A stretch of DNA of 64,000 nucleotides, from the NCBI RefSeq assembly GCF_000007345.1, contig NC_003552.1, forward strand, positions 4,402,001 through 4,466,000, read 5' to 3'. A model generated the notes under the pieces. That model had not been told where the DNA came from, ran no database searches, and worked only from the letters and a program-made list of their open reading frames with translations. The translations under genes were made by a program, and so were the position numbers. This DNA is from Methanosarcina acetivorans C2A. Lineage in GTDB: Archaea; Halobacteriota; Methanosarcinia; Methanosarcinales; Methanosarcinaceae. Shown piece by piece: positions 36,049-41,029 of the stretch. The stretch's first letter is position 1. Each line of letters starts with the position of its first letter.

Positions 36049-37476
36049 TTACTTGAGTTTCATTGTGAAAGATTTCCAAAAATTCCAGTACCAAGAAGTA
36101 GGCGGTTCTGTACTTGTGTTGGTGAATTTATCCGATTCGTTTTCAGAAGAAGGAGATGAAGAAAAACCAGCGGTTGAAGTATCATCAGTAACTGAAGTTT
36201 CATCAGTAACTGAAGCACTTCCGAAAACAAGACTTCCCAGGTTAGATGCATCTGTTCCATTGATGATTTGATTTAGTGTAAACTCCCCGAATTCATCTCC
36301 GACATTGAGAGTTCTGGCATTTGCATAATCGGCAAGCCAAATTCCATCAATCCAGACGATCCTTTTTTCTGACCCCACGAATAAATTTTTGACATGGACT
36401 TTCATGACAACAATATTGTTTTCACCCTGAACATCGTCAAGAGCAACAGTCCATGTCCTGTTGTCATCAGTATCCATTGAGACATTTTTATCGGCGATAT
36501 ATTGACCGTCCCTGGTAAGTTCAAGCCAGGCTTTCTCACTGTCAATATCAATCTCCCTGACCTCGAGAGCATAACCCTGACCGAGGTCGAGGATTTCACC
36601 GGCTTCGAGGACTTGCGTTTCATTGCTGTCAAGAATCAAACCGGTAAGCTTGTTAACATGCGAATCCCAGATATTTCCATCAGTGGGGAACAGCGGAACA
36701 TATTCCGCTCCAAATAAGTTGATTACCGGATACTGTTCATCAGACCAGCTATCGCACTCATAACCGGCAGCGGTAACATTACAGGTAAGGGCAGGTTCCA
36801 TATTGTTTTCGAAAACAAGACTTCCCAGGTTAGGTGCGCCTGTTCCGTTGATGATTTCCTTTAGTGTAAATTCCCCGAATTCGTCTCCGACATTGAGGGT
36901 TCTGGCATTTGCATAGTTAATAAGCCATATACCATCAATCCTGACGATGCAATTTTCTGCACCCACGAATATGTTGCTGACATAGACTTTCATGACAACA
37001 ATATCGTTTTCACCCTGAACGTTGTCAAGAATAACATTCCACGTCATGTTGTTATCAGTTTCAATCGAGATACTCTGGTCAGCTACATATTGCCCGTCTC
37101 TGGTTAATTCAAGCCATACATCCATATAGTCAATACTGATTTTCTTGACTTCGAGAGCATAGCCTTCACCAAGATATATTTTTTCTCCTTGTCCAAGTGT
37201 ATGTGTTTCATTGCTGTCAAGCATCAAACGGGCAAGCTTGTTAACATGAACAGCACAGATATTTCCATTAGTTGTGAACAGCGGAACGTATTCTTCTCCA
37301 CATAAATCGATTATCGGATACTGTTCATCAGACCAGCTATCGCACTCATAACCGGTAATGGTAACATTACAAATAGTGCTTCCATCGCTAACATTGTCTG
37401 CTGCACTTACAGTGCCTGCTGCAGCTGCAACAAAGACAGCAAGAGCAGCCAGTAAAACTGCTGTATGTTTCTTCAT
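36049..37476 (-). CDS. S-layer-domain (DUF1608-type) exported protein
   Basis: 475 residues. Signal peptide AVLLAALAVFVAAAAGTVSA. Two nearly identical domains of about 190 residues follow, each with ECDSWSDEQYP, VNKLxxLxLDSNET, GYALEV, WLELTRDGQYxAD and NARTLNVGDEFGEFTL, the repeat of Methanosarcina S-layer tiles. The end is a Ser/Thr-rich linker (TDETSVTDDTSTAGFSSSPS) and then WYWNFWKSFTMKLK; the expected membrane helix is missing. Either a secreted form or a C-terminally damaged gene. Confidence 0.9.
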   Translation of the reverse strand: MKKHTAVLLAALAVFVAAAAGTVSAADNVSDGSTICNVTITGYECDSWSDEQYPIIDLCGEEYVPLFTTNGNICAVHVNKLARLMLDSNETHTLGQGEKIYLGEGYALEVKKISIDYMDVWLELTRDGQYVADQSISIETDNNMTWNVILDNVQGENDIVVMKVYVSNIFVGAENCIVRIDGIWLINYANARTLNVGDEFGEFTLKEIINGTGAPNLGSLVFENNMEPALTCNVTAAGYECDSWSDEQYPVINLFGAEYVPLFPTDGNIWDSHVNKLTGLILDSNETQVLEAGEILDLGQGYALEVREIDIDSEKAWLELTRDGQYIADKNVSMDTDDNRTWTVALDDVQGENNIVVMKVHVKNLFVGSEKRIVWIDGIWLADYANARTLNVGDEFGEFTLNQIINGTDASNLGSLVFGSASVTDETSVTDDTSTAGFSSSPSSENESDKFTNTSTEPPTSWYWNFWKSFTMKLK

Positions 37477-37688: not shown

Positions 37689-39152
37689 TCAGGAAGTTGA
37701 GGAGGAATTCTCCTCCCCTCCTCCCTCAAGTTTTGCGAGTGCCTCCTCCGCAGAAGTTCTGACGTATCCGTATTCTTCCATATCCACGCTGATCCGGCGC
37801 AAACCTTCAATAGCTTCGGGACCACCAAGTTCTCCAAGGGCCCGGACTTCCGCAACCCGAACTTCACTTTCCCTTTCGGTCTCCAGAGCTTTGAGGAGAG
37901 GGGAAACAGCTCTTCTATCTCCAAGTTTTCCAAGTCCCTCCGCAGCAAACCGCCTTATCTTGTAATACTCATCCCCCAGCAGTAAAATCAGGGGCTCGAC
38001 TGCCCCCGGATCACCAATATCCACGAGGGACCTCACGACTTCTCTCTTTACATACCAGTCTGCAAGTTTAACGGAGCCAGCTTCTCTAACATCTTCATCC
38101 GAAGCTGCAGAAGCCCCTGAGAAGTCCGAAGTTTCAAGATGGAGAAGTTCTACAAGAGAAGCCACGGCTTCTTCACCTCCTGAATTGCCCAGAGCCCGGA
38201 TTGCAGCCATCCTCACATCCTCTTCCGGGTCTCCGAGAGCCTTGATAAGAGGCTGCTCTGTTAGAGAAGCTTCCTCACGGCCGAAACGCCCCAGGGCGAA
38301 AACAGCTGCCCTGCGAACTTCCTTGTCCCTATCATCCAGCATGCCAACAATGGGAAGTACAAGGTCTGGGTCCTGAATCCCTATAAGGGCATAGTTAGAA
38401 TCCGGGTTCTGAGTCCCTATAAGGGCATAAATACTGTTAACACGGACCGTTGGGTCTCTGCTGTCCAGTAATTTGAGAAGTTTTTCAACGGTTTCCTCAT
38501 CCCCTGACTCTCCTACAGCATCTGCCGCATATTCCCCGAGTTCTTCGTCACTAAAAAGCTCGATAAGAGGATCAACGGCCTTCGGGTCTCCAATAGCTCG
38601 AAGAGCAGATATGGAGCTCCTGCGTACTTCTTTATTATCTTGATCCAGAAACTCTAGAAGGGGGTCAACAGCTTCAGGAGCTTTCAATTGCTCAAGGGCA
38701 AAAATGGAACTGATTACTACCCTGTCGTCGTCGTCTTTGAGAAGCTCGATAAGTGGAGCCACGGCTTCTGCTGCTCCCAGGTTTCCGAGTGCTTCAGTCG
38801 AATTAATACGAACTTCCGGCTCAGGGTCCTCAAGAGTCTTTATAAGAGCTTTTGAAGCTCTGGGTTCTCCTATCCTCCCAAGGGAATAAGCGGCAAGGCT
38901 GCGAACCTGAGGATCCTCGTCTTTCAAAGCCTTTATCAGAGAATCAACCGAAGGCTCCCCTATATCGATAAGGGCATAAGCCGAAGCATAACCTACATCC
39001 AGGTCTTCATTCCCGAGGTTCCGGACCAGTTTATCCACCCTGGCCTCGAGAGGGTCCTTGCCAAGACAACCGGCACAGATTCCGGAGAACAAAAGCAAGA
39101 GAAGAAAAATTTTTGCATACCTGAAACCGAAAAGTTCACATCGCTTTACCAT
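37689..39152 (-). CDS. HEAT-repeat lipoprotein
   Basis: 487 residues. Lipobox FSGICAGC with the lipidated Cys at 29, then about 14 PBS-lyase-type HEAT repeats of about 31 residues (VRSLAAYSLGRIGEPRAS, VRINSTEALGNLGAAEA, VRMAAIRALGNSGGEEA). A binding scaffold anchored outside the membrane. Start ATG 39152 is 5 nt after the stop of the preceding gene with GAAGGTG suitably placed. Last gene of a three-gene operon with a CARDB-like protein and a membrane wHTH protein. Confidence 0.9.
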   Translation of the reverse strand: MVKRCELFGFRYAKIFLLLLLFSGICAGCLGKDPLEARVDKLVRNLGNEDLDVGYASAYALIDIGEPSVDSLIKALKDEDPQVRSLAAYSLGRIGEPRASKALIKTLEDPEPEVRINSTEALGNLGAAEAVAPLIELLKDDDDRVVISSIFALEQLKAPEAVDPLLEFLDQDNKEVRRSSISALRAIGDPKAVDPLIELFSDEELGEYAADAVGESGDEETVEKLLKLLDSRDPTVRVNSIYALIGTQNPDSNYALIGIQDPDLVLPIVGMLDDRDKEVRRAAVFALGRFGREEASLTEQPLIKALGDPEEDVRMAAIRALGNSGGEEAVASLVELLHLETSDFSGASAASDEDVREAGSVKLADWYVKREVVRSLVDIGDPGAVEPLILLLGDEYYKIRRFAAEGLGKLGDRRAVSPLLKALETERESEVRVAEVRALGELGGPEAIEGLRRISVDMEEYGYVRTSAEEALAKLEGGGEENSSSTS

Positions 39153-39157
39153 ATGCA

Positions 39158-40033
39158 TCACCTTCTCTCCTCTCCCGGAGGAAGTAACAACTCAGCAGAA
39201 GTCGATCCATTCTGCCACGTCGAACTCACATTAATCAAGAAACGATCCCCGCTCTTTCCAACAACAACATTCTTGACAGGCATATAGGATTCTCCCGAGG
39301 GATTTCCATGTGCTATTTCCACAACTGCGTAGGGATAATCCGGCCAGGTCCAGAGAGGAGTCTTGGTATACTCCCCCACATCATAAAGTTCAGAAGATGC
39401 AAACACCAGCTCTCCGGTCCTTTCGTCTGTCACTGTCAGGTTCACGGGTATGTCTTCTGCAGAACCTGATCCTTTGTTAATAAGGTAGCCGTAGATTCTG
39501 TAAACATCAGAAGTATTCCTGCTCTCGATTTTCCTGCTCTCGATTTCATATTCCAGCTTCAGGGAGAGATTTTCAGGAATTTCAGGAGTAGGGATCTCTA
39601 CAAGATAGGTACCTTCATCAAGAATCCTACCATCTCCAAGAACTTTCACCTTTACCGGGTATTCGCCTGGAAGTACATACCCAATCCATACGCTGACCGA
39701 ATTATTTCCAGGAAGGAGGTGGATCGGCGTCTCATGAGATACAAAGTTGACATCCCACGGGTCTTCGGAATCAGAGGGAATGAGCAATCCAGAATTGGGG
39801 TGAGCCACTCCGTCACTGCCCACATACGTATTCTCGGCTTCAATCCATACGTCCACAGGCATTGAACCATTATTCTGGAGCACTATATCCAGCTGTCCCG
39901 ACTCATGAACTCCAATGGGAGATGCGTTCATTTCTGCAATATGCACGTCAGTCCCTGTCCCGTAATACCAGAAAATTCCCAATAACAGTATAAGAAAGGC
40001 AGCTGAAAGCGTAATCAGAACATTTTTCTTCAT
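39158..40033 (-). CDS. Exported single-helix protein with CARDB-like domain
   Basis: 291 residues. N-terminal helix VLITLSAAFLILLLGIFWYYG acts as anchor or signal; then IAEMNASPIGVHESGQLDIVLQNNGSMPVDVWIEAE and NSVSVWIGYVLPGEYPVKVKVLG, beta-sandwich sequences like CARDB/COG1361, and a second sandwich (YRIYGYLINKGSGSAEDIPVNLTV). Its ATG overlaps the stop of the upstream wHTH gene by 4 nt. Function unknown; likely surface-exposed. Confidence 0.88.
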   Translation of the reverse strand: MKKNVLITLSAAFLILLLGIFWYYGTGTDVHIAEMNASPIGVHESGQLDIVLQNNGSMPVDVWIEAENTYVGSDGVAHPNSGLLIPSDSEDPWDVNFVSHETPIHLLPGNNSVSVWIGYVLPGEYPVKVKVLGDGRILDEGTYLVEIPTPEIPENLSLKLEYEIESRKIESRNTSDVYRIYGYLINKGSGSAEDIPVNLTVTDERTGELVFASSELYDVGEYTKTPLWTWPDYPYAVVEIAHGNPSGESYMPVKNVVVGKSGDRFLINVSSTWQNGSTSAELLLPPGEERR

Positions 40034-40659
40034 TTCATCTCCCCCTTCATTCCACCATCCCCTACAAGTCCTTCAGCTATCGAAATACAGTTAGTAAGTC
40101 CATACTTCTTCTTGTCTATTATGCCTCTCCGTTCCAGATTCATAAGGACGCGGGAGACCTTAGCCTTGGAAAAATCAAGGGAATTGACCAGTTCATTCTG
40201 GAGAATTCGCCCTCCTCTGTTCACAATCAATTCTATGGCTTTCCTTTCATCTCCCTCAAGGGCCTTTAAAAGAACATCCGTAGGATCAATATCCGGCCCA
40301 GAGGGCAAAGCCCCCTCTGAGGGAAAAGCATCCCCCGAGGGAGTATTGTAAGGAAAGACTTCGATATTCTCCTCAAAAGCGGATTCTACTGTAGCATTGA
40401 CATTTGTTAACTCTCCTGCGGGCCCCTGTAAAGGATAAAATGACCCTGAAACCCCCAGAGACAGTAAAACCTGGGTCAGAGCCAGACCACCGAAAAAACC
40501 GGAAAAAAAGAGAATATACGCTTCTTTTACCGTGTACACATATGGTATATCTATAACCTTGAATGCGTCCCCATCAAGCTGGATCACCACTGGAGTGTCT
40601 TCAAGCAGAAGATCAATGGCGACAATGCTTGACAGGAGCAGGATACCCACAGCCAGCAC
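40030..40659 (-). CDS. Membrane-anchored winged-helix protein
   Basis: At least 209 residues. Two N-terminal helices (AVGILLLSSIVAIDLLL; AYILFFSGFFGGLALTQVLLSL) flank a short external loop, a linker rich in Pro/Asp/Ser follows, and the C-terminus is a MarR-like winged helix: IELIVNRGGRILQNELVNSLDFSKAKVSRVLMNLERRGII. The GTG at 40659 has no ribosome binding site, while GAGGTGG stands exactly 7 nt before an in-frame ATC at 40680 that would add QERKRF. First gene of the cassette with the CARDB-like and HEAT lipoproteins. Confidence 0.85.
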   Translation of the reverse strand: MLAVGILLLSSIVAIDLLLEDTPVVIQLDGDAFKVIDIPYVYTVKEAYILFFSGFFGGLALTQVLLSLGVSGSFYPLQGPAGELTNVNATVESAFEENIEVFPYNTPSGDAFPSEGALPSGPDIDPTDVLLKALEGDERKAIELIVNRGGRILQNELVNSLDFSKAKVSRVLMNLERRGIIDKKKYGLTNCISIAEGLVGDGGMKGEMK

Positions 40660-40680
40660 GAATCTTTTTCGTTCCTGGAT

Positions 40681-41029
40681 CGTACTACCACCTCATTAAC
40701 TACCTCCAGTATGTACGAAACAAATGTTATAATTTTAGTTTAACCTGACCCCGAGACGTCTCAGAATTCCGAGACCACCGGTGGAAGATAGCGAAAAATA
40801 TTTTGGGCTGGTATATTGAAAAATAAGAGGATTTATCTCTGGTGAGATGAAAAATAAGCCAAGACAATGAATAAATCGAGCACGTAAATAGGCAGGCAAA
40901 TGGGTCTAGCAAATAAACAGACATATTAAGGGTAGGTTAAGAAAAACATAGGAAGAAAAAAGACCAGTCATGATAAAGGTAATCAACCATATCATTTATT
41001 CTTCAAGATATCAGTTTTTCGTCAGAGTA
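40681..41029. other. Intergenic spacer
   Basis: About 350 bp; nothing recognised apart from the ribosome binding site described for the wHTH gene. Confidence 0.4.

Follow-up and report, generated by a model that had tools for sequence, protein, structure and literature searches.

Does a compact operon of the methanogen Methanosarcina acetivorans encode a system by which an archaeal cell reads the state of its own envelope? To our knowledge, archaeal envelope sensing and the control of S-layer genes are largely open subjects and few membrane-bound archaeal regulators have been studied. M. acetivorans is genetically tractable. The window analysed here is a stretch of 64,000 nucleotides (positions 4402001–4466000) of a genome that consists of a single contig of 5,751,492 bp. 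An initial annotation of this window had grouped three genes as a one-way envelope-sensing system, composed of a membrane-bound DNA-binding protein, an exported sandwich protein and an external repeat scaffold.

Organisation of the operon

The three genes are located on the minus strand in the order wHTH, CARD, HEAT and are followed by a gene for an S-layer protein. CARD is used here as a label for the exported two-sandwich protein of the operon.

40030..40659, minus strand: wHTH regulator, 209 aa from GTG; TM1, outer loop, TM2, linker and C-terminal DUF7343
39158..40033, minus strand: CARD, 291 aa; N-terminal anchor, exported, two beta-sandwich domains; proposed sensor or co-component
37689..39161, minus strand: HEAT-repeat exported lipoprotein-like protein, 490 aa; Methanosarcinaceae-specific third gene
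36049..37476, minus strand: S-layer (DUF1608/PF07752) protein, 475 aa; downstream, with its own upstream region

The open reading frames of the window confirmed the tight coupling of the three operon genes, whose ends overlap or touch: the wHTH/CARD junction is ATGA, an overlap of 4 nt, and the CARD/HEAT junction reads GTGA/TGATG. Because the arrangement is conserved across genera and families, it lies far beyond chance.

A regulator with two predicted membrane helices

The C-terminus of the wHTH protein was assigned to DUF7343 (PF24034, E=4.5e-19, above the Pfam cut-off), and the winged-helix fold was matched as well. Two hydrophobic helices were found by Kyte-Doolittle hydropathy and by AlphaFold2. 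In the AlphaFold2 model, TM1 is followed by a beta hairpin (residues 24–37), TM2 (44–67), a disordered linker of about 55 residues and the winged helix (126–194); the model as a whole is poor (pLDDT 58) and good in the wHTH part only. The domain match and the two helices uphold the earlier description of a membrane-bound DNA-binding protein. With a DNA-binding domain and at least one predicted TM region on one chain, the protein has both features by which transmembrane transcription regulators (TTRs) are recognised. Upon alignment of 59 wHTH sequences, the outer loop of about 25 residues and its flanks (P..IQ....F....PY.YT...AY) showed the same degree of invariance as the DNA-binding domain. 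The linker varied, and it was short in the wHTH proteins of the ANME-2 loci (f2) and of the f5 loci.

The exported partners

CARD has one N-terminal hydrophobic helix (Kyte-Doolittle), followed in the AlphaFold2 model (pLDDT 79) by two all-beta domains at about residues 30–147 and 156–284. Foldseek matches to this model were Ig-like double domains with low TM-scores. No Pfam family was assigned to the window CARD, and CARDB (PF07705) exceeded the Pfam cut-off in 0 of 15 CARD relatives, one of which reached a sub-threshold E=0.02. The earlier label ‘CARDB-like’ therefore holds for the fold, with its two all-beta domains, and fails as a family assignment. A sequence search of solved structures with the CARD profile returned nothing usable. 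In one metagenome-assembled genome (G019, locus L073) the CARD frame is split into two ORFs, by a real break or an assembly error.

The repeats of the HEAT protein are unambiguous (HEAT_2, E=6e-81, Pfam), and one N-terminal hydrophobic helix was found here too (Kyte-Doolittle). A lipobox-like CAGC is invariant in 15 Methanosarcina HEAT proteins, its −3 residue being Cys, not the usual L, V or I. The corresponding N-termini in genera g14 and g17 read GFATGC, GFSAGC or GFSIGC, and no clear lipobox was seen in genus g21. In this last genus (loci L120, L121 and L122) the HEAT partner reaches 1128–1690 aa, and two of the loci, L120 and L121, carry a second HEAT-like gene close upstream of wHTH and in the opposite orientation.

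Conservation and obligate pairing

Among 40 relatives examined, 14 further Methanosarcina genomes carried all three genes, and five genomes from two other families carried wHTH–CARD but lacked HEAT. A profile search located CARD in 70 of the 238 genomes of the class and gave nothing convincing beyond the class in 393 genomes of the phylum. CARD loci were found in the order Methanosarcinales only; outside it, weak matches to sandwich proteins were obtained, several beside MacB-type ABC transporter genes, and no pair. Named records bearing CARD include Methanosarcina, Methanosarcinaceae MAGs and an ANME-2 archaeon.

In 59 of 59 loci examined, which are phylogenetically non-independent, wHTH lies directly upstream of CARD, mostly with a 4-bp overlap, and the pair is kept although the genes further upstream of wHTH differ between genera. 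Co-occurrence elsewhere, on which the initial annotation had made its reading depend, was thus observed for these two genes. In the reciprocal search with a wHTH profile, every intact full-length ortholog was accompanied by CARD. Among genomes lacking CARD, the best match came from a Methanosarcina (G024; locus L152, G024:C360:1-9030) and consisted of frame-split wHTH remnants only; the locus gave no CARD match and no close HEAT match, consistent with a deletion in which the whole unit was lost. A tandem duplication of the wHTH–CARD pair, followed by an S-layer-domain gene, was seen in one f5 genome (L139).

HEAT follows the pair as third gene in g1, g14 and g15, in all g21 loci and in four of five from g17; the remaining g17 locus and the g24, f2 and f5 loci lack it. 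Of the three-gene system proposed earlier, the wHTH–CARD core was retained and HEAT set apart; judged by its distribution, HEAT is a Methanosarcinaceae addition, accessory to the core pair.

Leader, promoter block and near-palindrome

The region upstream of wHTH contains three elements.

40756..40778, minus strand (genome 4442756-4442778): conserved operator-like near-palindrome of 23 bp, GTGGTCTCGGAATTCTGAGACGT
40717..40735, minus strand: TATA/BRE block, AAATTATAACATTTGTTTC, at fixed spacing in Methanosarcinaceae and f2
40689..40694, minus strand: Shine-Dalgarno-like GAGGTG, in nearly all aligned Methanosarcina leaders

The consensus palindrome core, GTCTCAGAATTCTGAGAC, is perfect over 18 bp, of which the window copy keeps 16. 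In a mismatch scan, 40 of 40 Methanosarcinaceae and f2 loci for which enough sequence ahead of wHTH was available had the near-palindrome, separated from the TATA block downstream of it by 19–21 bp (20 bp in 33 of them); it was not detected ahead of the operon in f5. Because the neighbouring genes on the upstream side change from genus to genus, the promoter block belongs to the wHTH operon; for the same reason a function as terminator of the upstream neighbour was ruled out. In its own genome the near-palindrome is unique at up to 3 mismatches. A search of that genome for the operator gave no second strong site, and no regulon was drawn; the element was not found at the window S-layer gene either. 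Its fixed phase upstream of the TATA block fits a site for an activator or an autoregulator, and the regulator that binds it may be wHTH itself.

An in-frame ACG (40681-40683) behind GAGGTG is an alternative start of wHTH. Of 19 leaders, 17 have ACG at this position, one has ATG and one AAG; in other genera TTG or ATG is seen there (read by eye). The GTG or ATG at 40659 is conserved as well, with ATA in one leader, and no codon-position bias was present between the ACG and GTG starts. From the leader alignment, translation from ACG instead of GTG is possible.

S-layer genes downstream

The length of the window S-layer protein (475 aa) fits that of MA3598 of M. acetivorans (PMC3361143 Table 1). 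A literature search found MA3598 in one S-layer paper and no publication on the three window genes of the operon. An iterated profile detected 38 S-layer-domain ORFs across 30 loci; each one is situated downstream, on the operon strand, and there were none on the upstream side. PF07752 was confirmed by Pfam in 16 of 43 sampled downstream proteins. As each genome holds roughly 10–28 S-layer-domain matches, chance adjacency should be rare, and three or more distinct gene contexts show the adjacency. Several f5 loci have an S-layer-domain gene that begins 22–60 bp after CARD and is probably co-transcribed with it. In Methanosarcina it lies some 140–350 bp behind HEAT and has its own upstream region. 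S-layer genes were absent at the loci of g14, g17, g21 and f2 and at some others. The downstream S-layer-domain gene, which was outside the three-gene set of the initial annotation, is the strongest envelope link of the locus. Based on this neighbourhood the operon is probably tied to the S-layer, and the window S-layer gene may be a target of wHTH.

Short-loop and long-loop DUF7343 regulators

DUF7343 TM proteins other than those of the CARD type were divided by their outer loop into 19 short-loop and 17 long-loop cases; one of the short-loop cases, L121, also pairs with CARD, at a lower score. A neighbouring gene for an anchored exported partner accompanied 19/19 short-loop and 2/17 long-loop proteins (Fisher p=2.4e-8, uncorrected for related genomes), the long-loop relatives carrying an ectodomain of their own. 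The exported partners lie on either side of the regulator, vary in sequence from one subfamily to another and, for the most part, match no Pfam family.

Both types occur in M. acetivorans. Three DUF7343 regulators (L146–L148) have an ectodomain of about 120 residues between two TMs. They share with wHTH the DUF7343 domain and the order TM1, ectodomain, TM2, linker and winged helix, but differ in that the ectodomain, with a weak CarboxypepD_reg-like match, is part of the chain and no exported partner is adjacent. A second short-loop 2-TM DUF7343 regulator of this organism (L149:1771-3115, own genome about 5371270-5372614) is encoded by a gene that overlaps one for an anchored exported protein of 209 aa. 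An ABC-2-like permease gene is the upstream neighbour of the L149-type pair in sister genera.

From these sequence comparisons the simplest account would be a sensor domain supplied either in cis or in trans. We consider it about an even proposition that the Methanosarcinales possess a class of short-loop 2-TM DUF7343 regulators with interchangeable, apparently unrelated exported sensors encoded next to them, with fused sister proteins, the window pair being its widely conserved, S-layer-tied member.

Discussion

That wHTH binds DNA from the membrane and works together with an exported partner is well supported by the inseparable pairing in 59 loci. Our main reading, at a probability of roughly 0.6, is a split ‘co-component’ TM regulator in which CARD is the sensor in trans of wHTH, and which is autoregulated at the near-palindrome and influences neighbouring S-layer-type genes. 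The regulator would be held in the membrane by its two helices, with the short conserved loop outside and the winged helix inside on a flexible linker. CARD, anchored by its one N-terminal helix with both beta-sandwich domains outside, would dock on the outer loop; we infer both this membrane complex and the signal passing through it. CARD would read something in the pseudoperiplasm or the S-layer, in Methanosarcinaceae together with HEAT, which possibly presents the change. A change in CARD would alter how the winged helices pair or where they are placed, and with it their binding to the near-palindrome that lies 20 bp ahead of the operon's TATA block, so that the operon regulates itself and nearby surface-protein (S-layer-type) genes probably respond too. 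Such a system would sense the envelope and signal one way, as originally suggested.

The promoter region also admits an owner other than wHTH. The near-palindrome could belong to another regulator while wHTH controls distant genes only, a reading with which the missing element in the f5 loci agrees, binding by wHTH being a proposal; yet the element stays upstream of this operon in changing contexts, keeps a fixed phase to TATA and has no other copy in the genome, which leaves this possible but on the doubtful side. A simpler role for the exported proteins, in which CARD, HEAT and the S-layer protein are structural and wHTH is a local repressor or activator with CARD as a product and not a sensor, draws on the surface proteins that surround the locus in several families. 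It would have to accommodate a membrane-resident regulator whose outer loop is conserved, and a CARD that is never found without wHTH whereas other surface proteins change. That short-loop regulators have dissimilar partners, and long-loop regulators an ectodomain of their own, also speaks for a sensor, and we regard the structural role as unlikely.

Proteolytic release, in which CARD and HEAT gate a site-2 type protease that cuts TM2 or the linker and frees the winged helix, seems rather improbable. The disordered linker between TM2 and the winged helix would offer a place to cut, and an M50/site-2 protease-like protein is encoded three genes upstream in one f2 locus (L077; read by eye). No protease gene was noted beside the other loci, however; f2 and f5 have a short linker, and the second TM and the loop are conserved beyond the needs of a mere tether. 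At L077:2675-5218, genes for a KaiC/RecA-like ATPase, a membrane protein and the M50/site-2 protease-like protein stand directly upstream of wHTH–CARD.

The split regulator favoured here resembles the co-component systems ToxR/ToxS, TcpP/TcpH and VtrA/VtrC, in which a membrane winged-helix regulator and an anchored extracytoplasmic partner are encoded by adjacent, often overlapping genes (PMC9214523). Adjacency or overlap (4 bp) of the partner gene is shared by wHTH–CARD. The structural parts differ: wHTH has a C-terminal MarR/ArsR-like DUF7343 and a short outer loop, unlike the N-terminal OmpR-type HTH and C-terminal periplasmic domain of the ToxR/S type, and CARD has two beta-sandwich domains where the ToxR/S and VtrA/C partners are lipocalin-like. 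The locus is moreover archaeal, with a 2-TM regulator and lipoprotein and S-layer neighbours, and no homology is indicated. wHTH–CARD is thus ToxR/ToxS-like in layout and outside the structural definition of co-component systems by the type and end of its DNA-binding domain, its periplasmic domain and its partner. By analogy, this suggests an archaeal version of the bacterial two-protein envelope sensors.

TTRs, including ArnR, have a DNA-binding domain and a TM region on one chain, as has wHTH (PMC10269533). The table of characterised TTRs in that survey gives no associated protein for ArnR, its archaeal entry, whereas the sensor of wHTH appears to be a separate, obligate protein. The Methanosarcina SlmA/DUF1608 S-layer proteins (PMC3361143) are of the same family as the linked downstream gene; they are the presumed target or ligand and not parts of the regulator.

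The locus offers a testable system: a regulator with its obligate partner and proposed sensor, a candidate operator, and an S-layer gene close by. If a short outer loop means a partner in trans, this rule would predict the sensor partners of other archaeal membrane regulators, those of ANME-2 included.
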